Of a DNA stretch of 27,046 bases, positions 411-24,118 are shown in pieces. A program made the translations under genes and the position numbers. Each line of letters starts with the position of its first letter. Position 1 is the stretch's first letter. A model generated the notes under the pieces. The model worked only from the letters and a program-made list of their open reading frames with translations, was not told the DNA's origin and did not search any database. The stretch covers positions 1 through 27,046 of the IMG/VR virus record IMGVR_UViG_3300042446_001847. One strand, written 5' to 3'. Origin of the DNA: a virus.

Positions 411-2525
411 ATGGCGACCAATATAAACGAAAGAGTCTACAAGATATCGGTCGATGGTGCGTCGGCGATCAAACAGTTAGAAAAGATTGCAGGATCGGCG
501 ACAAGCATTGATCAGAGGTTTGCAAAACTAGGCACAGCCCTCAAGGGCGCATTCGCAGTCGGAACTGTCGTTGTTGGCATCAAGTCATTTACGGACGCAA
601 TCGGTAAAGCCATCGACGAGATGGACGAGATGAGCAAGGCGGCGCAAAAGATTGGCGTAAGTGTCGAGTCGCTCTCTGGTCTAAAGTTTGCCGCTGAACA
701 ATCTGGCGTAGCGTTTGAATCTCTTCAGACTGGCTTGAAAAAACTTAACCAGAATTTATTTGATTTTGACACCGCAACAGATGCAGGAGCGCAATCACTA
801 AAGAAATTCGGTGTCCTAGTTGGCGACGATACAACGACGGCATTAGGCAAAATCGCTGACGGATTTGAAAGTATTCCAGATGGAGTACAAAAGACGGCCA
901 CAGCGATGGCCATATTCGGGAAAGCTGGAGCTGACCTAATCCCGCTTTTAAATGGCGGCTCAAAATCGATTGAGGAACTGACAGCCCGAGCCAAAGAACT
1001 TGGTATCGTTTTTGATGGCGTGGCGGCAAAGCAAGCTGAACTCTTCAACGATAAGATGTCGGAGCTCAGGACGGCGCTGAATGGAGTATTCATTCAGATC
1101 AGCACTGGATTGCTTCCTGTTCTTTCTGCGCTCACCGATGAACTTACCAGTTCCGTAAAAGTCGGCGATACATGGAAAACAGTTGGCGAAGGTATTGGCG
1201 AAGCAATGCTCGACATTGCAGAGTCGACGATTGTTGCAATAGATGCCTTGGCTTCATTTGGTCGCGGTATTGCCTTTTTGGCGGGAACAGCCAAAGATTT
1301 GGCGAGTATCAGGCTTGATCCAACCGGTGACGGTCCGGCAAATCTTGTTAAACGCTTCCAAGACGCTTTTGCATCTGAGCCGGTCGAGACAGCGGGCAAC
1401 AAACTGCTAGAAACAATTAAAAGAGTTCGAGAGCGAGTTAAAGAGCCGCTTGATGAACTGAATAAGCCCCTAAGAGGAGGAGCAGGCGGTGGAGCAGGCG
1501 GTGGCGGAAAGGGCGAGAAGTCTGATCTTGAGAAGTGGCTTGATGGTCTTAAAAAATCAGCCGACGAATTAGACTCAATTCCAGAAAAGATGAGAATTCT
1601 TTCCGAGGCTCTCACCCAATTAAAGGATAGCGGCGAGGAAGGTTCTAGCGCATTCAAGGTGATGTCAGACGCCTATAAGAAATTGAACGAGGAAACGGCT
1701 AAAGGTAATGTCGGCGCTGAGATTGAATTACAGGTTCAAAAGATAAAAGAAGAAGCAACGCTGACCGCAGAGAAAATGGAATATCTCGGCACAGCAATTG
1801 CTTTCGCATTTGAGCAAGGAGATACAGAAGGCGCACAGATTCTCATTGACATGATGGACAAGCTCAAAGGTAAGACAGACGAGACTGCCGATCAATTTAA
1901 AAAGCTCGGAGACGGTATAGAGCAAGCAATTGCCAACAACGCAAACAATGCGGTGAACTCTTTCATCGACAACATTGGACAGGCTGAATTGTCATTTACA
2001 GACTTTGCGACTTCAGTCATAAAAGATATTGCAAAAATCGTCGTCCAGCTGCTCATTATGAAACCCATCATCGACAGCATCAAAGGATTCATTGGTGGAT
2101 TCAGCAGCGGTGGTGAGGTGGGCTGGGAGGGTGGGTTTTCTACCAGGGCGTTTGCGGCCGGTGGCTCTTTTTCTGGTGGCACAGGGCTGGCGCAAGGCGT
2201 CTACTCTCAGCCGACTTTATTCAAGTTCGCTAAAGGTGGCACGTTTGGCGGCAACATTGGTGTTTTGGGTGAAGGGTCTGGACCCGAGGCAATCGTCCCA
2301 CTCAAACGCACAGCATCAGGTGACCTGGGCGTTCAGGCCTCGCCCGTCAACGTCAACGTCTACAACAACGCTGGAGTTGAGGTCAAAACAGAATCATCAA
2401 CAAGCAGCGACGGCACAAAGCAGATCGACGTATACATCGAGCGCAAGGTCAAGGACGGCATTGCGAACGGCTCATACGACAGGGCCTTCAAGGGCGCTTA
2501 CGGTTTATCTAGGATGGGGGCTTAA
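411..2525 (+). CDS. Tail tape measure protein
   Basis: This 704-aa protein probably sets tail length and passes through the tail tube during DNA entry. Residues about 41-60 are hydrophobic. Long helical, charged stretches follow, broken by a Gly-rich linker near residues 355-370. A second hydrophobic stretch lies near 535-565. The C-terminus has the Gly/Phe-rich region and the GEGSGPEAIVPLKR segment (about 622-635) typical of lambda gpH-like tape measures. The start ATG follows an AAAGGAGA ribosome site at 396-402, and the upstream gene ends two bases earlier. The protein is somewhat shorter than lambda gpH (853 aa), which would fit a slightly shorter tail. Its stop overlaps the stop of a small convergent gene on the other strand. 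The family call is firm; the tail length is inference. Confidence 0.93.
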   Translation: MATNINERVYKISVDGASAIKQLEKIAGSATSIDQRFAKLGTALKGAFAVGTVVVGIKSFTDAIGKAIDEMDEMSKAAQKIGVSVESLSGLKFAAEQSGVAFESLQTGLKKLNQNLFDFDTATDAGAQSLKKFGVLVGDDTTTALGKIADGFESIPDGVQKTATAMAIFGKAGADLIPLLNGGSKSIEELTARAKELGIVFDGVAAKQAELFNDKMSELRTALNGVFIQISTGLLPVLSALTDELTSSVKVGDTWKTVGEGIGEAMLDIAESTIVAIDALASFGRGIAFLAGTAKDLASIRLDPTGDGPANLVKRFQDAFASEPVETAGNKLLETIKRVRERVKEPLDELNKPLRGGAGGGAGGGGKGEKSDLEKWLDGLKKSADELDSIPEKMRILSEALTQLKDSGEEGSSAFKVMSDAYKKLNEETAKGNVGAEIELQVQKIKEEATLTAEKMEYLGTAIAFAFEQGDTEGAQILIDMMDKLKGKTDETADQFKKLGDGIEQAIANNANNAVNSFIDNIGQAELSFTDFATSVIKDIAKIVVQLLIMKPIIDSIKGFIGGFSSGGEVGWEGGFSTRAFAAGGSFSGGTGLAQGVYSQPTLFKFAKGGTFGGNIGVLGEGSGPEAIVPLKRTASGDLGVQASPVNVNVYNNAGVEVKTESSTSSDGTKQIDVYIERKVKDGIANGSYDRAFKGAYGLSRMGA

Positions 2526-2686
2526 TGCTTGCGCGAAAGTTCCTTTTCGATAATCAGTCTTATCCACTGAGCAAGGGTTCGCCTGTCGGACTTGGCAGCC
2601 TTTTCAGCCATGTCTTTAAGCCTTTGGCTAATTCTGAAATTGATAGTGGCGTCCATTTCAATGTCGCCTTGCGGTTTACCGGCCAT
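2522..2686 (-). CDS. Small ribbon-helix-helix (Arc/CopG-like) protein, 54 aa
   Basis: A short minus-strand frame begins at ATG 2686-2684 and ends at TAA 2524-2522. It encodes 54 aa. After a short N-terminal arm, residues 11-19 (MDATINFRI) look like the beta strand that Arc-type repressors place in the DNA major groove. Two helices follow, containing RLKDMAEKA and TLAQWIRLIIEKEL. The start has a GGGAG ribosome site about 8 bases upstream on the minus strand. The gene is convergent with the tape measure gene (stops overlap) and divergent from the GIY-YIG gene at 2780. In the roughly 90 bp between them is an inverted repeat at 2736-2751 on a TATAAT box. The likely role is a local repressor. No toxin partner is visible, so an orphan antitoxin is less likely. 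It is too short for many gene finders. Confidence 0.8.
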   Translation of the reverse strand: MAGKPQGDIEMDATINFRISQRLKDMAEKAAKSDRRTLAQWIRLIIEKELSRKH

Positions 2687-2735
2687 TTAAATACTCCCTT
2701 AAATTCTCTAAATAATACAACAAATATAAAATGTG

Positions 2736-2751
2736 TGTATAATGTAATACA
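2736..2751. promoter_or_regulatory. Candidate operator overlapping the promoter of the GIY-YIG gene
   Basis: TGTAT-N6-ATACA is a perfect 5-bp inverted repeat. It covers a consensus -10 box TATAAT at 2738-2743 that points toward the GIY-YIG gene starting at 2780; no good -35 is visible. On the minus strand, TTGTAT and TATATT spaced by 18 bp in the same gap could serve the RHH gene. A small dyad over a -10 box, beside an RHH gene, is the usual arrangement of an Arc-like operator. No binding data exist here. Confidence 0.45.
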
Positions 2752-2779
2752 AGATAACACATTTTGTTTGGAGAGAAAA

Positions 2780-3607
2780 ATGGTTGCCGGTATTTACCGA
2801 ATAACTAACAGTGTGAATGGCAAGGTTTACATCGGGATGAGTACAAACATCGATCAACGCCGATATGATCACTTCAAAGACACTGCTCCCAAATACAAAT
2901 CAAAGCTACAAGCGGCTTTTAAAAAATACGGAAAAGATTCTTTTATCTTTGAACCTGTATATGTTTGCATTTCACAAGATTATTCGGATCTGCACTTGTT
3001 AGAGGCAGAATTTATTAAGTCTTATGACTCAGTAAATTCTGGATACAACATTTTGCCGGCATCACAAGGCCTGGGATCCTATGGCAAAGAGTGGGCAGAG
3101 AAATGTAAAGAAAGGGCAAAGGATCCTGAATTACGAAAAAAGTTTGCTAGTCATGGAGAAAAAAATCCAATGTTCGGCCGCTCACGAAAAGGTGAGCGAG
3201 TAGGTGGTGCAGTCACTCCAATGTATGGAGAAAAAAACGGTTGCTGGAAAAAAAATCCACTTGAGGGTAAGTCCGCTGAATTCATTGATGAGTTTAAGAA
3301 AAAAAGTGCTCGTCCAGGAACACTGAATGGATGTTATGGATCCACATTTGTTTGGATTAACAAAGACGGAATTCATAAAAGGCATGATGAAAACAATCCT
3401 ATTCCTGATGGTTGGAATTTAGGGTTTTGCAAAACTGCGGAAATGCAAAATGCACGAAAGCGCAAAGTCAAATGTGTCGACACTGAGATTGAATACGAAT
3501 CCGCCACGGAAGCCGGAAGGCAGACGGGATGTTTACCTTCAAAGATCACTTTATGTTGCCAAGGTAAGCGAATGCAAACAAACAAACTTCGATGGGAGTA
3601 TGTCTAA
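2780..3607 (+). CDS. GIY-YIG homing-type endonuclease with NUMOD-like DNA-binding tail
   Basis: The protein has 275 aa from ATG 2780, which follows a GGAGAG ribosome site at 2770-2775. The GIY-YIG nuclease domain is at the N-terminus: GIY at residues 4-6, VYIG at 16-19, a conserved Arg near 27-28 and Glu at 75/77. After it come NUMOD3-like motifs (GEKNPMFG near 126-133, GEKNGCW near 150-156) and a C-terminal NUMOD1-like module (about 229-275) that would bind DNA. This is the layout of free-standing phage homing endonucleases. The frame is open upstream to 2525, but those 85 codons cover the antisense RHH gene and the promoter region, so I reject that longer start. Its stop abuts the next tail gene, whose ribosome site lies inside this frame. 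The gene is visibly richer in A and T than its neighbours, as expected of a mobile insertion. Confidence 0.9.
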   Translation: MVAGIYRITNSVNGKVYIGMSTNIDQRRYDHFKDTAPKYKSKLQAAFKKYGKDSFIFEPVYVCISQDYSDLHLLEAEFIKSYDSVNSGYNILPASQGLGSYGKEWAEKCKERAKDPELRKKFASHGEKNPMFGRSRKGERVGGAVTPMYGEKNGCWKKNPLEGKSAEFIDEFKKKSARPGTLNGCYGSTFVWINKDGIHKRHDENNPIPDGWNLGFCKTAEMQNARKRKVKCVDTEIEYESATEAGRQTGCLPSKITLCCQGKRMQTNKLRWEYV

Positions 3608-14757: not shown

Positions 14758-15003
14758 TTAAATTATTCTGTGTTGACGAATGCCGACGATGCCTTTCGGT
14801 AATTCTTGAGCCGGCTCGATAAATTCGCTTTTTTGTCCTCCGGTCACTTTGAGGTAATCAATCTCAACCTTTGCGGTGTCAACCAGAACGCCGGCCACCT
14901 GTGCGATAGCCTTTGCGCGATCCACTTCAAGAGGATTTTCTCGGTCCCGTAAATCGTCCAGCGTACCCATTAGTGCTGCGCGTAACTCTGACATCGTGCT
15001 CAT
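14758..15003 (-). CDS. Conserved phage hypothetical protein, 81 aa
   Basis: ATG 15003 overlaps the upstream HNH stop as ATGA (15000-15003). The sequence is a predicted helix pair: MSTMSELRAALMGTLDDLRD, then a second helix around VDRAKAIAQVAGVLVDTAKV, with a short tail. Small proteins of this form, with the DRAKAIAQVA pattern, are common beside HNH genes in proteobacterial phages, but no function is known to me. The tight coupling suggests it is translated with the HNH protein upstream. Confidence 0.68.
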   Translation of the reverse strand: MSTMSELRAALMGTLDDLRDRENPLEVDRAKAIAQVAGVLVDTAKVEIDYLKVTGGQKSEFIEPAQELPKGIVGIRQHRII

Positions 15004-15650
15004 GCTGCCTCTCTCTGAATGCGATTAACGTGCCTGGTGATCGCGCCTTTGAGTCTGACTAAGTGGCCAAACTCTGCGCCGCGAGAATTAGGATTGTGAC
15101 GCCTTGCGTGTTCTGCTCGGGTGACACATTCAACCTTATCGATCGTGATTTCTTCGAGCTTGTTGGTTCTCATGCCTGGTCGAAACACAACCATCGATCC
15201 TTGAGGTACTTTGCCGTTGATCTCTTCCCAAACAAGCCGATGCACTGGATGCCAACGAACGTGATTGGCGCCTTTTTCGTTGCTGACTTTGCGGTCCAGA
15301 TAGCCTTCGCCATTGATCCGATAGCTGCCGACCGGCTTTGTGTTGTGGGGTGAGGATCCGGCTGCAAAGCGTGTCTCGGCGCTTCGGCCACCAGCTTGGT
15401 AACTCTTACCCTTATTCCAAGACTGTTGGCCTGATACAAAGCGCGTCTGCTTACCTCTGTCACCGGTTGTGCGACCTGACTCAGCACTTGCCAAGAACTC
15501 GGCCGACTTGGACAGGCCAAGCACCTTGGCTTTTGCATAAACACTAGACAGACTGGTGCCGATCAGTTTGGCAACGTGGGCAGATTTGGTGTGAGGGTAA
15601 TGTTGCCGAAGTTGGCTTAAGCTCACATCAGTCCAGATGAATCGCTTCAT
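15000..15650 (-). CDS. HNH endonuclease with N-terminal helix-turn-helix
   Basis: In this 216-aa protein, residues about 1-50 look like a helix-turn-helix domain (LSQLRQHYPHTKSAHVAKLI). A Gly/Ser-rich linker follows. The HNH nuclease fold lies in the second half: HPVHRLVWEEINGKVPQG (about 133-150), then the block ending with Asn and His in TRAEHARRHN. The layout matches phage-encoded HNH proteins of the homing or DNA-processing type. It has ATGA overlaps on both sides: its start at 15647-15650 with the gene ending at 15647, and its stop with the next gene. I cannot tell a selfish gene from one in regular phage use. Confidence 0.8.
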   Translation of the reverse strand: MKRFIWTDVSLSQLRQHYPHTKSAHVAKLIGTSLSSVYAKAKVLGLSKSAEFLASAESGRTTGDRGKQTRFVSGQQSWNKGKSYQAGGRSAETRFAAGSSPHNTKPVGSYRINGEGYLDRKVSNEKGANHVRWHPVHRLVWEEINGKVPQGSMVVFRPGMRTNKLEEITIDKVECVTRAEHARRHNPNSRGAEFGHLVRLKGAITRHVNRIQREAA

Positions 15651-15878: not shown

Positions 15879-16580
15879 TTAAGTAAATGAAAGGCGGTGA
15901 TACGCCTCGCGAGTGGCCTTAATGTCGCGCTTACAGTACGCAGCCACTTCCTCAATCTTTCCGTCACGCAAATAGTCATAGACCTTGCTGCCATCGATGC
16001 CGTCTTTGGGGCTGTCGATGCCCAACACTCGGCAGAGTTTGTCTAAGCTGATCCGATTGCCGAATCCTGCGAACATGGTCATCGTGTCAGCAATCGACTC
16101 GGACCATGATTTCGCGTTCAGCGGGAGCATCGAGGGTGGTGCAATCGAATTGACGGCGCATCGCTGAAAGATGAACCTCAAATCGAACCCGCTGATGTTG
16201 TGGCCAACGAATACGGGACGACGATCCTGAGTCGGATCGAAGTTCGATCGTAAGTATTCAAAAGCATCAGCGAGGATCTGCTTCTCAGTGTTGCGCCAGT
16301 CGTCCTGGTAAAAGACGACTGGCTCTGCATCGTCGACAGCAATACCGATCACGGCGATCTGGCCATAAGCACCATCGAGCGCAGTCTTTCGATAACGATT
16401 CTCAAAGTCAGCATCGATCTCGAGTTTCTTGGCTGCGATGTACTCTGCAATTTTGACCTCGTCCTTGTAATTGGACGGGGGTTTAATTGCAGCCTTTTCT
16501 GCAACCGACTCGGCCGCCAGAAGCTCGATGATCTCGATGTTCTGTGCGGGGCAAGTTTCGATATCTATGAACACAAGCAT
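15879..16580 (-). CDS. DEDD-family 3'-5' exonuclease (PolB-like)
   Basis: This 233-aa nuclease has the ordered acidic motifs of the DEDDy class. They are DIETCP at residues 6-11, GHNISGFDLRF near 136-146, and YCKRDIKATR near 216-225, where Tyr and Asp are four positions apart. Such enzymes degrade single strands from the 3' end and serve phage recombination and repair. It lies in the operon with the SSB-like gene, which fits that role. Its start, ATG 16580 after GGGAAAG, is inside the HNH gene upstream by 16 bases. No polymerase domain is attached, so it is a stand-alone proofreading-type nuclease. Confidence 0.85.
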   Translation of the reverse strand: MLVFIDIETCPAQNIEIIELLAAESVAEKAAIKPPSNYKDEVKIAEYIAAKKLEIDADFENRYRKTALDGAYGQIAVIGIAVDDAEPVVFYQDDWRNTEKQILADAFEYLRSNFDPTQDRRPVFVGHNISGFDLRFIFQRCAVNSIAPPSMLPLNAKSWSESIADTMTMFAGFGNRISLDKLCRVLGIDSPKDGIDGSKVYDYLRDGKIEEVAAYCKRDIKATREAYHRLSFT

Positions 16581-17074
16581 TTCAATCTTTCCCTTTTTAA
16601 TTGACTATTTTTTGTTAAACATTGAGGGTGGAAATAAATTCCTGATGTTCCGTTTACATATTTTTTTAGATTATTTAAATCATCATATTGTTTGCAATAT
16701 TTACAAAACCTCTTATTAGGATCTCCGCAAGCATCCATCGCTCTCATTCGTGCATGGATAAGATTGTGGTAAGCGCGATCCGGGCAAATAACAAGGTTTT
16801 CTGGCCTGTTGTCTGATCTGATTTCGTTTACATGGTGAACGACAGCACCAGGCGGAAGTTCTTTTCCCAATGCTTTCTCGGCCACTAAAACGTGTTCAAA
16901 TTTTTTTACTCCGTTGATCTGATATCCGATGTATCCGAGTGAGTTAAACCCCTCACCATTAGCGCGTTTTTTGGTTATCAGAGGATCACCATATTTCATA
17001 AACCTCCGATAGTGAACGTCACACCACTGCCGCTTTTGTTTTGGTTTATTGCAAGATTCAACAGAGCAAATCAT
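16565..17074 (-). CDS. HNH homing-type endonuclease between SSB and exonuclease genes
   Basis: In this 169-aa protein the N-terminus has a Cys-rich unit (CSVESCNKPKQKRQWCDVHY, residues 3-22) that may bind zinc. The HNH core (about 78-110) contains the HHVNEIRSDNRPENLVIC block, followed by a His-containing helix. A C-terminal Cys unit (CKYCKQY with HPQCL) may be a second zinc site. The C-terminal part is visibly more AT-rich than its neighbours. It sits between two genes that belong together in recombination (SSB-like and exonuclease), overlapping the exonuclease start by 16 bases, which suggests insertion. The start ATG 17074 is 11 bases after the SSB-like stop. Confidence 0.85.
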   Translation of the reverse strand: MICSVESCNKPKQKRQWCDVHYRRFMKYGDPLITKKRANGEGFNSLGYIGYQINGVKKFEHVLVAEKALGKELPPGAVVHHVNEIRSDNRPENLVICPDRAYHNLIHARMRAMDACGDPNKRFCKYCKQYDDLNNLKKYVNGTSGIYFHPQCLTKNSQLKRERLKCLCS

Positions 17075-19133: not shown

Positions 19134-19385
19134 GTGATAGGACAAGAGGCGTTTAGAGAGGCCTGGCAAATTGCTGGGTCTAAAACAGCATTAGCAGGAA
19201 TGATCGGGGTCGCATCAAGCGCACTCTCTATGTGGGAAACCAGAGGCCAAGTCCCACTCAAGCAAGCAATTCTCATCGAGCAAGCCGTCGGCGTTCAGCG
19301 CCACAGACTTAGACCAGACATCTGGCCACTTCCGTTCGTTCGTATCAGAGCATCAGAACAAAAAAATGACCCAGCGCAGCTGTAA
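19134..19385 (+). CDS. cro: Cro/YdaS-like repressor
   Basis: This 83-aa protein starts at GTG 19134 after AAGGAG. The sequence EAFREAWQIAGSKTALAGMI with the following VASSALSMWETRGQVP is a helix-turn-helix of the Cro/YdaS class, and the IEQAVGVQRHRLRPDIWP ending is typical of that group. It is divergent from cI and would be the early repressor that shuts cI off in the lytic cycle. It probably binds the TCAC-N5-GTGA sites. The short region after it (19386-19432) carries only a GGAAA ribosome site for the next gene. Confidence 0.88.
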   Translation: MIGQEAFREAWQIAGSKTALAGMIGVASSALSMWETRGQVPLKQAILIEQAVGVQRHRLRPDIWPLPFVRIRASEQKNDPAQL

Positions 19386-19432
19386 CTGCCTGGATCGTGG
19401 TCATTACTCAATCTATCTCTAGGAAATAAACA

Positions 19433-20380
19433 ATGACAAGTGCAATTTTAATCGATCTCGAATTCAAAAACCTAATTCCAGCACTTCAAGATGACGAGCG
19501 CACCCAGCTTGAAACAAATCTGGTCGGCGACGGGTGCCGCGATCCATTAACGCTATGGAATGGCATTCTTATCGATGGCCACAATCGATATGAGATCTGT
19601 ACTAGAAACGGTATTAATTTCGATACAGTTCAAATGCATTTTGAGACCCGCGAAGATGTGATTGAGTGGATCATCCGCAATCAGTTTGGTCGGCGCAACC
19701 TATCGAATTACGACCGCACAAAATTAGCTTTGCGCCTAGAGGAAAGTATCCAGAAAAGAGCTAAGGCGAATAAGGTTTTGAGTGGAGAACAATTCGGTAA
19801 GGGTTATCAGATATCTGATAAACCTATTGAGCCAGTTCATGTAAATAAAGAAGTAGCAAAAGTCGCTCAGGTATCGCACGACACTGTCGCAAAAGTAAAA
19901 AAGATTGAGGCTATTGCGCCTCCAGAAATTCGCCAGGCACTTTCTGCCGGCACGATGTCAATCAACCAAGCGCATAAAGAAGTTCTTCGTGTTGAACAAA
20001 AGCAGATTCGTTCTGAGCAGGAATGGACTCAAGGCGAAACGGTTAGAAAAAATCGTGTGCTTGCTGGGGTAACGGTTGTTGCATCAAAGCGTCGCAACAG
20101 CGAAGGCAAGGAAGTCGACGCAGCACTAATTTCGTGGGCCGAGAAAAACGGGAAACTTGTACTGGTCGACAGAAATACAGATTGGGGCAATCCATTTGAG
20201 ATGCCAGCAGACGGTGATCGTGACACTGTGTGCGATAACTTTGAAGAGCATTATCTTCCACACAAGCCAAGCCTTTTATCAAACTTGCCTAAGCTGCGCG
20301 GCAAGGTTCTGCTGTGCTGGTGTCATCCAGATCGATGCCATGCTCAAACGCTAGCCAACCTCGTTAATGAAGAGGTTTGA
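19433..20380 (+). CDS. ParB-like N-terminal domain fused to DUF4326
   Basis: In this 315-aa protein, the first 100 residues are a ParB/Srx-type domain, with ILIDGHNRYE at about 45-54 (the usual conserved G-H-R box). A basic helical part follows, with a helix-turn-helix pattern near 135-155 (VNKEVAKVAQVSHDTVAKVK). The last about 75 residues match DUF4326: DWGNPF near 245-250, and CWCHPDRCHA at 295-304, the Cys/His motif of that family. ParB-like domains of this class can bind DNA or hydrolyse nucleotides or DNA; DUF4326 has no known role. The fusion joins both in one chain and is the first gene of a tight cassette, two bases ahead of the next gene. Confidence 0.78.
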   Translation: MTSAILIDLEFKNLIPALQDDERTQLETNLVGDGCRDPLTLWNGILIDGHNRYEICTRNGINFDTVQMHFETREDVIEWIIRNQFGRRNLSNYDRTKLALRLEESIQKRAKANKVLSGEQFGKGYQISDKPIEPVHVNKEVAKVAQVSHDTVAKVKKIEAIAPPEIRQALSAGTMSINQAHKEVLRVEQKQIRSEQEWTQGETVRKNRVLAGVTVVASKRRNSEGKEVDAALISWAEKNGKLVLVDRNTDWGNPFEMPADGDRDTVCDNFEEHYLPHKPSLLSNLPKLRGKVLLCWCHPDRCHAQTLANLVNEEV

Positions 20381-20382
20381 TC

Positions 20383-21072
20383 ATGGTCATTGATGATTTT
20401 GTAATGCTTGGCCGCACAGTCCCAGAACAATCGAAAAAACATGGAATGGTTGCGTGTAGTGCTGGTTACTCGGAGGAAATGAAACGATTTATGCGTGTCT
20501 ATCCTCTCGCGCCTACCGAACGTATTCCTAAGTGGACTCAATGCCGTTTATCGCTTCGCAGAAACCCCTTAGACAGCAGAGACGAATCTTGGCGGCTGGA
20601 TGATGACAAGAGCGATGTCGTTTCGATTATTGGTAAGAAAAGCAAGGACGAGCAATTTGATTTTCTTAAATCAATGGCCAGCGATTCGATTGCCAAGCTC
20701 AACGCAGATAAAAAAAGTCTTGGAATTATTGTCCCTTCGATAACAGGCTGGCATTTCTCTGGGCTATCCGATAACGAAGAGCGCCAGTTCCCATTGTTTG
20801 AAGGTCAAGAGGATATGAAAAAAATGGTTCCTCGCATTCGCTTTGATGACAACTCGGGACATCACAACTTACAGCTTAGAGATTGGGGCTGCTTTGAGCT
20901 TTTGCGTAAGGGCGCAGACCCAGAGAAATTATGGAGCGCATTGAAATTAAACGATCCAACCTATGAGCATATTTTCTTTGTTGGGAATCACAACGCACAT
21001 AGGAGCAGCTGGTTGATCATCAGCGTAATTTCAAAACGTAAATCCATGAACCTCGATTTGTTTGGAGAATAA
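20383..21072 (+). CDS. Unrecognised conserved-looking protein, 229 aa
   Basis: I choose ATG 20383, with GAGG ahead; TTG 20377 overlaps the previous stop. The family is not recognised. Well-spaced blocks suggest a real enzyme or binding protein: LGRTVPEQSKKHG (8-20), a Cys-containing VACSAGYSEEMKRFMRVYPL block (22-41), RRNPLDSRDESW near 58-69, the HHNLQLRDWGCFELLRKG block, and FFVGNHNAHRSSWLIISVIS (about 194-213) near the end. There is no membrane segment or standard catalytic motif. It is coupled on both sides (2 and 3 bp gaps) to the ParB-DUF4326 fusion and an HNH gene, so it is likely part of one functional unit. Confidence 0.72.
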   Translation: MVIDDFVMLGRTVPEQSKKHGMVACSAGYSEEMKRFMRVYPLAPTERIPKWTQCRLSLRRNPLDSRDESWRLDDDKSDVVSIIGKKSKDEQFDFLKSMASDSIAKLNADKKSLGIIVPSITGWHFSGLSDNEERQFPLFEGQEDMKKMVPRIRFDDNSGHHNLQLRDWGCFELLRKGADPEKLWSALKLNDPTYEHIFFVGNHNAHRSSWLIISVISKRKSMNLDLFGE

Positions 21073-21075
21073 ATA

Positions 21076-21690
21076 ATGCTGAACAATAACGCGCCCATCA
21101 AGGCGATCACCAAGAAAGACAGAAAGGCCATTGTCGGCCAACTCATTCGCCGATACCCAACTGGCGTCCTATTTGAAAAGCACGACGTCGAGACCCTGAA
21201 CACGTTACTCGATCGCAGCTTTGATTTCTACGAGAGAAGAGTAAATAAAGATTTTCCGAATGATGACGCGCACCTCTGGGCGTGTAAGGACAGCATCTGG
21301 GACTCGATCAGCTGGAACAAAGCCATATCTCCTCGATCAAGCCTTCAGGTCATTAAAAAAGCGATGAGAATGTCGGTCTACACAGACACGAAAGACATCA
21401 GAGAAATTTTGCTCGAGGTCGCTCCGGTCTGTGCGAATGATTCAGATCAGTGCAATTACGATTTCCCGCTTGAGCTGGACCATAAGGACACATCGTTTGA
21501 TCACATCGCCAGCAGATGGTTGCGCGTAAACGGTGAGCCAGAAATAGTTCAGCGTGAAGAGAATAAAGGTGCTGGATGGTTCTTTAAGGATCAGGCCGTC
21601 GAGGCCGACTGGATCGCATATCACGCCTATCAGGCGAATTATCAGCTGTTGTGTAAATCCTGCAACGCCTCGAAAGGATCAAAATGCTAA
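21076..21690 (+). CDS. HNH-like nuclease, third gene of the cassette
   Basis: This 204-aa protein has an HNH-like block in its second half: the LELDHKDTSFDHIASRWL stretch (about 133-150), then YQLLCKSCNASKGSK at the end (189-203), which gives Cys-X-X-Cys and the typical N-x-x-K-G closing. The first half is helical and unrecognised. It begins three bases after the previous gene and overlaps the primase-helicase start by 7 bases. Possible roles are DNA cleavage guided by the ParB-like partner, or a homing gene; I cannot decide between these from the sequence. Confidence 0.72.
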   Translation: MLNNNAPIKAITKKDRKAIVGQLIRRYPTGVLFEKHDVETLNTLLDRSFDFYERRVNKDFPNDDAHLWACKDSIWDSISWNKAISPRSSLQVIKKAMRMSVYTDTKDIREILLEVAPVCANDSDQCNYDFPLELDHKDTSFDHIASRWLRVNGEPEIVQREENKGAGWFFKDQAVEADWIAYHAYQANYQLLCKSCNASKGSKC

Positions 21691-23906
21691 GACCAGATCT
21701 CGCAGAAGCACGAAGGCTGCTAGATGCTGGGGTGTGGTTAGTTAAGCTCAAACCAAACTCAAAAGCTCCTGAGGGCTTAGAGTGGAACAAGCGACGCGCC
21801 ACCAGCATTGATCCGACGGCCACAGGATATGGCTTTCCTCTTGCGCCTAACCAGGCATGCAGCATCGACCCAGACAACCGGGATCTGGCTGTCGTCGGCA
21901 TGAGAGCGCTCGGGTTTGACCTTGAGCAAATCATGGACCTCGGCGTAAGAACAAGCTCCAGCAGATCGGGGTCAGGTGGCCGATCAGTATTCTCTGAGGA
22001 GCCAGATATTTCCTGGCTCAAATTCTCGAGCAAAAACACAGGCACAGTGATCGAATTCCGGGCCGCGAGTGATAACTTGCAAGACGTTGTCCCAGGGCTT
22101 GTCTATACGACCCGAGACGGCGAGATTTGCACTCAGAAATACGCATCAACCAAAAGGCTCGACGACAAGCCTGGGCTGCCCGATGATCTCTTGACTTGGT
22201 GGCAAAAATGCTCGACCGACATTGAGTTCTATCGCAAGCAACAAGAGATATTTTTCTTTGCTATCGCCGAACATCTTAACAAGCCTGTCGCACCAGCTCT
22301 GGCCATCAGCACCGGGCGCAACGGGACCGTCTTGGCGTTTCCTGCGGCTGGCTATCGCGGCGCATTTAATCGCACCCATTCAGTCGCATCGATCCTGGAG
22401 GTTCATGGCTACGGGTACGACAAGAAAACCGAGAGGTATTTCCCGAGTACGGCGACGGGTGAGCCTGGTGTTCGACCAATCCCCGGCAGGACCGATCTCT
22501 GGCGGTCTGACCACGCCTCGGATCCGCTGCATGGCACGTTTGATGCCTGGGTGGCTCACGTTGTCCTGAATCACTCTGGCCGAGTTGAGGATGCAATCAA
22601 AGAAATGGATGAGCTTGCAGCAGACGAGCGGCCAGAGCCTCCAGATGATGTTTATTTCAATGACAACACACCAATAAGCGGGTCTCAGATTGTTGGCGGT
22701 GCGTCAAACAATGTCGCAGGATCTGGCGCGTTCGATGTCTCGAATCTGAGCGTCGACAAAAACGGCAAGATCACCAACAGCTGGACGAACTTGCATATCG
22801 GCTTGTCCAACTATGACGTCGGCCATGATCGGTTTCTGGACGTTCCTATGATCCAGGAGGCCGGCCAGTGGCGCAGATTTGACGATACCGATTATGTCCG
22901 GTTTGCCCTGGATATGGAGGCGCTCGGATTTAAGACGCCATCGATCAATATGATCAAAGATGTGGTCCGTCACATCATGCACGAGAAGTCGTTTGACTCT
23001 GCGATCAACTGGCTGGATTCACTCACCTGGGATGGCGTAGATCGATGCTCACGCCTCTTTTCTGTTTATTTTGGTGTTGAGCCGTCTCCATACGAGCAAG
23101 CGGTCAGCGAGTACTTTGTGACCGCAATGGCCGGGCGAGTATTGACGCCTGGTGTCCAGGCAGACATGGTCCCGGTTCTGCTTGGCGGCCAGGGTATCGG
23201 CAAGACGTCTGGCGTCAAAGCACTCGCCCCCATAAACGACTCATTTGCTGAAATCGACCTGTCTGGCCGCAAAGACTCGGATCTGGCTCGTCAATTGCGC
23301 GGCAAGCTGATCGGTGAGCTGGGTGAGCTTCGTGGCCTGAAAACCAAGGACAGCGAGTGGATCAAGGCTTGGATCACCAGGACGCATGAGGAATGGACGC
23401 CCAAGTTCGTGGAACATTCCAAGAATATGCCCAGGCGATGCGTGTTCCTCGGGACAACAAACGAGGACGAGTTCCTGATTGATGTGACGGGAAATCGGCG
23501 CTGGTTGCCATTGAGGGTGATTTCGTCATGTAAGCCGGCACAGATCAAAAACGACATCGAGCAGATCTGGGCGCAAGCGGCCGCCATGTATCGAAAGAAT
23601 TCGGTCATGTGGGAAGTGGCCGCCAGGTTGTCCGAATCGTTCCAGGAAGAACACACCCAGCACGACGATTGGGCGATGGACAGCATCGAGGAGGTCTTAA
23701 ACATGAGTCAGTTTGTCGCTGTTGATGGGTTCAAGCTGAAAGACGTCACAGACAAATTGTTTCCAAATATTGAAGTGAGTAGGGCATCCCAGCATCGGAT
23801 TTCGGATGCGCTGAAGCGACTAGGGTACACAAGGGTCACAGTAAAGAAAAACGGAAAGTTTACTAAGGCCTACAAAAAAATTGAGGATGAAAATCCGTTT
23901 CAGTGA
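21684..23906 (+). CDS. Primase-polymerase/SF3 helicase replication protein (VirE-like)
   Basis: In this 740-aa protein, the N-terminal about 180 residues look like an archaeo-eukaryotic prim-pol domain (ACSIDPDNRD near 70-79 has the Asp-x-Asp pattern). A middle region of unclear type follows. The C-terminal half is the VirE/SF3-type helicase, with WDGVDR near 451, Walker A GGQGIGKTSG at about 500-509, Walker B in KLIGELGELRG (about 541-551) and sensor-like FLGTTNEDEFL. One chain would both prime and unwind, as P4 alpha protein does. It is immediately followed by GGGTAC repeats and an AT-rich region (23912-24096), the likely origin, which an alpha-like protein would bind. No separate DnaB loader is seen. 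Confidence 0.88.
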   Translation: MLRPDLAEARRLLDAGVWLVKLKPNSKAPEGLEWNKRRATSIDPTATGYGFPLAPNQACSIDPDNRDLAVVGMRALGFDLEQIMDLGVRTSSSRSGSGGRSVFSEEPDISWLKFSSKNTGTVIEFRAASDNLQDVVPGLVYTTRDGEICTQKYASTKRLDDKPGLPDDLLTWWQKCSTDIEFYRKQQEIFFFAIAEHLNKPVAPALAISTGRNGTVLAFPAAGYRGAFNRTHSVASILEVHGYGYDKKTERYFPSTATGEPGVRPIPGRTDLWRSDHASDPLHGTFDAWVAHVVLNHSGRVEDAIKEMDELAADERPEPPDDVYFNDNTPISGSQIVGGASNNVAGSGAFDVSNLSVDKNGKITNSWTNLHIGLSNYDVGHDRFLDVPMIQEAGQWRRFDDTDYVRFALDMEALGFKTPSINMIKDVVRHIMHEKSFDSAINWLDSLTWDGVDRCSRLFSVYFGVEPSPYEQAVSEYFVTAMAGRVLTPGVQADMVPVLLGGQGIGKTSGVKALAPINDSFAEIDLSGRKDSDLARQLRGKLIGELGELRGLKTKDSEWIKAWITRTHEEWTPKFVEHSKNMPRRCVFLGTTNEDEFLIDVTGNRRWLPLRVISSCKPAQIKNDIEQIWAQAAAMYRKNSVMWEVAARLSESFQEEHTQHDDWAMDSIEEVLNMSQFVAVDGFKLKDVTDKLFPNIEVSRASQHRISDALKRLGYTRVTVKKNGKFTKAYKKIEDENPFQ

Positions 23907-23911
23907 TTGAA

Positions 23912-24096
23912 GCGTACAAAGGGTACATAAGGGTACTCAAAAAAGATCAATGTTTTCAATGCTTTGTACCCTTTGTACCCTTTGTACCCTTATATATCTA
24001 TTAATTAATAAATAGAAATATAGGTAGTAATAGGTAGATATATATCTAAACGTATTAATAGGAAATAAGGGTACTAAAGGGTACAAGGGTACAAAA
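23912..24096. other. Candidate replication origin: GGGTAC iterons around an AT-rich core
   Basis: This region holds nine copies of GGGTAC or its close form. Forward copies are at 23921 and 23931, with a degenerate GCGTAC at 23912. Three inverted copies form a tandem TTTGTACCC array, 9 bp apart, at 23963-23989. Three more forward copies lie at 24069, 24079 and 24087. The arrays enclose a very AT-rich stretch (about 23990-24065) of TATA and TTAAT runs. Outer arrays pair as inverted repeats. Clustered iterons, an AT-rich unwinding region and a primase-helicase gene directly upstream are the usual marks of a phage origin (compare P4 ori). No coding frame is supported here. Confidence 0.7.
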
Positions 24097-24118
24097 CAAC
24101 ATTACTAAGGAAAATATA

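Follow-up and report, generated by a model that had tools for sequence, protein, structure and literature searches.

The best explanation of the region behind cro in this temperate phage is that two adjacent genes, genes 1 and 2, form an optional, horizontally moving unit, which lies as an insert between cro and an HNH gene resident in the locus. The window, that is, the whole stretch of 27,046 nucleotides that was analysed (IMG/VR virus record IMGVR_UViG_3300042446_001847), had been described in an earlier note as carrying a cassette of three genes at this place. Only the first two of those genes make up the insert; the third, the HNH gene, belongs to the resident locus. The most likely function of the inserted pair would be site-addressed DNA modification or end-processing.

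The features of the locus are listed here by position in the window.

19134..19385, + strand: Cro-like regulator (Pfam YdaS_toxin / Phage_CI_repr HTH), left neighbour, outside the unit
19412..19437: left insert junction; identity with the relative L003 stops at about 19411-19415
19433..20380, + strand: gene 1, 315 aa, ParB-like N domain and HTH head (about aa 1-195) fused to DUF4326 (aa 239-308)
19800..19825: dyad of 26 bp with symmetry at 24 of 26 bases, a candidate for the head's own, self-encoded binding site
19804-19821: perfect 18-bp palindrome core TTATCAGATATCTGATAA, in the hypervariable loop of gene 1 just before the HTH
20315..20341, + strand: invariant loop of DUF4326, CWCHPDRCH (aa 295-303), which may be the active site
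20383..21072, + strand: gene 2, 229 aa from ATG, predicted tandem OB-fold protein of the PDC-M19B family
21075..21076: right insert junction, coinciding exactly with the HNH start codon; the L003 alignment restarts at 21075
21076..21690, + strand: gene 3, 204 aa, HNH-like with a weak HamC/DUF3223-type match, resident, outside the two-gene unit
21684..23906, + strand: primase/helicase (Prim-Pol and VapE-like), resident replication gene, retained in L003 and L004

Two-gene insert and resident HNH gene

All coordinates and spacings given in the earlier note were confirmed: genes 1 and 2 are separated by 2 bases and genes 2 and 3 by 3 bases, and gene 3 overlaps the primase gene by 7 bases. Since dN is about 0.03-0.2 of dS in those pairs of relatives whose dS is unsaturated, the genes are real and under purifying selection. 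Scans for sigma-70 promoters and terminators gave counts close to the shuffled expectation, and the DNA of the cassette had no match in the phage collection.

We compared the window with three relatives of its phage in IMG/VR (L003, L004 and L005). The identity of L003 to the window is 97.5% over 3.4 kb on the left and 99.7% over 6 kb on the right, and that of L004 and L005 is about 85-87% and about 90%, respectively. All three relatives lack genes 1 and 2 here, and their HNH gene comes straight after the Cro-like gene. In place of the 1.64-kb stretch that holds the pair in the window they have a conserved mini-ORF of 13 codons (MTETIICKAVIEC or MTGFIICKAVIEC), and at the left junction of the window the ribosome-binding site and the ATGAC start are still similar to those of this mini-ORF. 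DNA and protein searches found no copy of genes 1 and 2 elsewhere in the whole L003-L005 records. The mini-ORF is located at L003:3393-3434 and at the same place in L004 and L005, and its stop overlaps the start codon of the HNH gene.

L003 has an intact HNH gene, and the part encoding the nuclease has been deleted from the gene in L004 and L005. No relative of gene 3 was found in any of the other loci that carry the pair of genes 1 and 2. The tight spacing of the three genes on one strand had favoured a single cassette including the HNH nuclease; the presence of the HNH gene in three relatives that lack the pair, its absence from all other pairs found and the deletion of its nuclease part in two relatives contradict this reading, which we consider highly improbable. 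Independent occurrence in relatives, which the earlier note had named as evidence against its reading, was seen for gene 3, and genes 1 and 2 are linked, so only the first two of its three genes can be kept as one unit. The description of gene 3 as HNH-like holds in a weak sense, because the Pfam match is 15.3 bits against a cut-off of 21.4 and the similarity to Hachiman HamC, of HNH/DUF3223 type, is also weak (E 1.6e-5).

Hachiman itself was considered and rejected, as neither HamA nor HamB was seen among the 10 neighbouring proteins of the window, which is a fragment. At L004:6001-6279 and L005:699-977 the HNH-like gene has lost the whole nuclease part in frame and keeps the first 84 residues, 78% identical to the window. 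This N-terminal piece may have its own job, because it is kept under purifying selection after the loss of the nuclease. At L005:1030-3032 an unrelated helicase-like replication gene stands in place of the primase. Since the flanking genes are retained there, the whole region is a hotspot of module exchange.

Judged from gene order across genomes, genes 1 and 2 form a genuine unit. When gene 1 alone was used as the query, all 29 viral loci found (about 20 of them distinct) had a gene-2 homologue as the next gene downstream, in the same orientation and either abutting or overlapping. Gene 2 was present in 10 of 398 Pseudomonadota genomes, and in all 10 it adjoined a DUF488 gene (9) or a DUF4326 gene (1, Thiospirillum). 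Among plasmids, those of Burkholderia, Rhizobium, Calothrix and Fischerella have DUF488 next to gene 2, that of Haloquadratum has a ParB-HTH-DUF488 fusion there, and Natronococcus is the exception. The pair of DUF4326 and gene 2 is also present in Cyanophage KBS-S-2A. A single-protein query found no gene-2 relative in viral contigs. The linkage is asymmetric: many phage DUF4326 genes occur without gene 2, so the partner is not always needed. The distribution of the pair is optional and patchy.

Predicted enzyme, head and OB-fold partner

The earlier assignment of gene 1 as a fusion of a ParB-like domain, an HTH and DUF4326 was borne out. In the AF2 model, the N-terminal half matches the pNOB8-like ParB-N domain with Z 8.0, and the top structural matches of the head are all ParB, Noc or KorB, in agreement with the fold of a ParB N domain plus HTH; gene 1 also matches the ParB-like phrog_4715 at 5e-6. 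DUF4326 (PF14216) was detected with 70.4 bits against the curated cut-off of 25 (E 2.1e-19). The C-terminal enzyme is constant across relatives (D246, R247, D250-WGNPFE and C295-W-C-x-P-x-x-C-H), and C295, W296, C297, P299, C302 and H303 are invariant across 21 gene-1 relatives. The N-terminal head, in contrast to this constancy, is swapped among relatives, being ParB/HTH, DUF3102 or one of at least two other types. The C-terminal part matches the RapZ C-terminal domain (residues 160-265) weakly, with Z 5.1-5.2 and 85 residues aligned, and the CWC..CH and C.E..CHR loops align, with a weak HHalign result.

The ParB/HTH head is shared with other enzymes. Phage fusions of it to MT-A70 and to N6/N4 methyltransferases have the same head (41-60% identity) and the same palindrome in the loop within the gene. 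The head of Methanoculleus virus L4768, for example, carries an N6/N4 methylase. A methyltransferase-type motif is present with at least 56 of 83 ParB/HTH heads, and 8 of 16 ParB/HTH-head records tested have MT-A70. Because it also carries methylases, the head may be regarded as an address module for DNA-modifying enzymes. By comparison of these fusions, DUF4326 occupies the position usually held by a methylase; the phage pair differs from them in carrying DUF4326 together with a separate OB-fold partner.

Gene 2 had been left unrecognised in the earlier note. It is now predicted to be a tandem OB fold, since its structure was modelled with AF2 (pLDDT 85, 21 sequences) and nearly all of the nearest solved structures are OB folds (best Z 9.3). 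The first barrel matches SSB, PriB, RPA and telomere end-binding proteins, and most of the length matches HIN-200 and baculovirus LEF-3. Gene 2 also matches the PADLOC model PDC-M19B (PDLC04507) at 6.5e-11, and any one of the three M19B models matches up to 8 of the 21 members of the gene-2 family. Pfam gave no usable model for gene 2 (21 members), the NCBIfam scan gave nothing useful, and the sequence search against solved structures gave nothing for gene 2 and nothing useful for gene 1. The models thus far suggest that gene 2 is a single-strand-DNA-binding-like partner of the gene 1 enzyme.

PDC-M19 is a candidate defence pair in PADLOC-DB, and we found no mention of it by name in the literature searched. 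Like the phage pair, it is made up of two neighbouring genes, for an enzyme that bears a head at its N terminus and for an OB-type partner, the latter being the M19B family to which gene 2 belongs. PDC-M19A, however, is a DUF488 protein with an N-terminal extension, whereas the enzyme domain of the phage pair is DUF4326, and the phage pair is phage-borne with a ParB/HTH head. A search of gene 1 against PADLOC, including PDC-M19A, gave no match at E<=1. Because gene 2 is M19B and gene 1 lacks an M19A match, we regard the phage pair as the DUF4326 counterpart of PDC-M19, not as a member of it. The suggestion that the locus is a new system thereby holds only in part, as gene 2 with a DUF488 partner is already catalogued.

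At L060:4780-6493 in a bacterial genome, a full-length PDC-M19A (N-terminal domain plus DUF488) forms a pair with M19B, just upstream of genes that resemble phage tail genes by eye. Since it adjoins such genes, the DUF488 version may also be prophage-borne.

A 2023 paper by the group behind the published predictions on DUF4326 reportedly predicts DNA-end processing for the RapZ-C/DUF488/DUF4326 clade. Gene 1 resembles this clade in its CWC-x-P-x-x-CH loop and in its weak RapZ C-domain-like fold match; it differs in having a ParB/HTH head and a dual-OB partner, not Macro, SLOG or NADAR, and this pairing may already be described.

Palindrome inside gene 1

The 18-bp palindrome of gene 1 is the longest in the window and occurs only once. 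Relatives have different palindromes at the equivalent place of the gene, and when 23 gene-1 and head genes were searched for their best palindrome with a short spacer, it fell at the loop position in 18-19 of them. In a separate search, 83 ParB heads with 42 distinct loop sequences were collected, and 24 of the 42 loops individually exceeded synonymous-codon shuffles (p<0.05). The combined Fisher p over the 42 loops was 5e-24 against these shuffles, a statistic that ignores relatedness. The excess is limited to aa 125-129 of the heads, and the same test on gene 2 of the same loci showed none (combined p 0.999). Paired positions beyond the core also co-vary, being T-A in 19 and G-C in 19 of 47 sequences, and the observed value was reached by 0 of 1000 shuffles. 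One and the same palindrome core is translated in two reading frames, giving QKSD or VRNLT, so the DNA, not the peptide, is under selection. Two further records, from other phages and 37 and 41 kb long, each contain the site once, as their longest repeat of this kind. A ParB-DUF4326 gene, L134, has no strong palindrome (arms 5, p 0.09). Across the genes compared, the palindrome goes with the head and not with the DUF4326 module.

The simplest reading is that the dyad is a candidate dimer-binding site of the gene 1 head, kept in its own gene, and the palindrome is probably the enzyme's own target. An RNA hairpin is less likely, because the symmetry often extends to the exact centre. A by-product of a conserved peptide was rejected, as the peptides differ, two frames are used, compensatory changes occur and the synonymous-codon null is exceeded. 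Also set aside were 13-bp repeats (CATAACCGTTATG) that some heads have at aa 50, since they come from the conserved GHNRY peptide and gave no excess in the control test.

A site within the gene of its own binding protein has precedents, namely parS inside spo0J of B. subtilis and ori inside lambda O. In these cases a dyad or iteron likewise lies inside the binder's gene; the site of gene 1 differs in that its sequence diverges fast between relatives.

Proposed function and competing explanations

The biological role of the pair can be outlined as follows. Early transcription from behind cro would make both proteins. The head, judging from its fold and from the dyad, would bind the dyad and bring to the DNA the DUF4326 domain, a putative RapZ-C-like Cys/His enzyme. 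DUF4326 may then act on DNA at or near the dyad, as the invariant Cys/His loop and the methylase fusions of the head suggest, while the tandem OB protein would hold single-stranded or end DNA for it. The pair would thus modify or process DNA by sugar-phosphate or end chemistry, and the outcome would most likely be the marking or protection of phage DNA early in infection, or alternatively harm to rivals. We give this molecular model as a whole, that is, an optional unit of a DNA-addressed enzyme and an OB partner for DNA processing, about an even chance. DNA processing, one of the functions that the earlier note had offered, is the best-supported class.

Inter-phage exclusion, also offered there, keeps some probability because gene 2 matches a candidate-defence family. 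The DUF4326 enzyme and its OB partner would then attack or tag the DNA of competing phages, as the candidate PDC-M19 may do, and the match of bacterial partners to PDC-M19A, the optional and patchy distribution and the early-region position after cro are consistent with this. PDC-M19 itself, however, has no more than candidate status, neither a toxin-like nor a nuclease domain was detected in the pair, and the bacterial pairs (chromosomal DUF488 pairs) had no obvious setting in defence islands. The methylases on the shared head also fit DNA marking better than killing, and we consider exclusion unlikely. We think it quite unlikely that the pair is a replication accessory in which gene 1 is an initiator or centromere-like protein acting on the site in its own gene and gene 2 an SSB/PriB-like loader for the primase. 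The location behind cro, and in many phages close beside primases or helicases, the nearness of the OB folds to SSB, PriB and RPA, and the single-copy dyad inside gene 1 would suit such a role. A lambda O-type initiator, however, is required for replication, whereas the nearly identical L003 retains the same primase although it lacks genes 1 and 2, so the pair is dispensable; moreover, the invariant Cys/His enzyme loop is conserved and bacterial pairs are in general not beside replication genes.

DUF4326 has been predicted to belong to the rhodanese-phosphatase superfamily and to act on the terminal phosphates of ADP-ribose, on the basis of fusions to Macro, NADAR and SLOG (PMC9503650), and to bridge NAD-linked signalling and DNA modification tied to replication and restriction-modification (PMC7824862). 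The first of these predictions would favour counter-signalling, in which DUF4326 strips terminal phosphates from ADP-ribose derivatives of host NAD-based immunity. Here, however, DUF4326 sits on a DNA-binding head and is linked to an OB-fold protein, and no Macro, NADAR or SLOG domain was found in the gene-1 relatives scanned; counter-signalling is very unlikely for this pair. The literature search found no biochemistry on DUF4326 or PDC-M19B.

Returning to site-addressed modification, we suggest, with less than even confidence, that phages possess a modular, self-addressed DNA-marking system built from the head, a rapidly changing palindrome within the gene and swappable payload enzymes. The payloads in such a system would be methyltransferases, or DUF4326 with a dual-OB partner, and reader and site would travel together. 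If the palindrome is the site of the head, phages would have a general means of changing specificity and swapping enzymes without separating the site from its reader, and this would explain the hypervariability of this stretch of the protein. For DUF4326, an uncharacterised enzyme family, a partner is now defined and a specific DNA site can be put forward as candidate substrate, which opens its chemistry to direct tests, and PDC-M19, a catalogued but unexplained defence candidate, is now linked to phage genes.

Some other observations were made in the window. A GIY-YIG homing-endonuclease-like gene at 2525-3607, between tail genes, appears by eye to be fused in frame to a short unrelated leader, and two more HNH homing-endonuclease-like genes were seen by eye in the leftward early region (16565-17074 and 15000-15650, both on the - strand). 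The intergenic stretch between primase and RusA (23910-24098) contains several inverted copies of 27-140 bases, detected as reverse-strand matches to the same region of L003.
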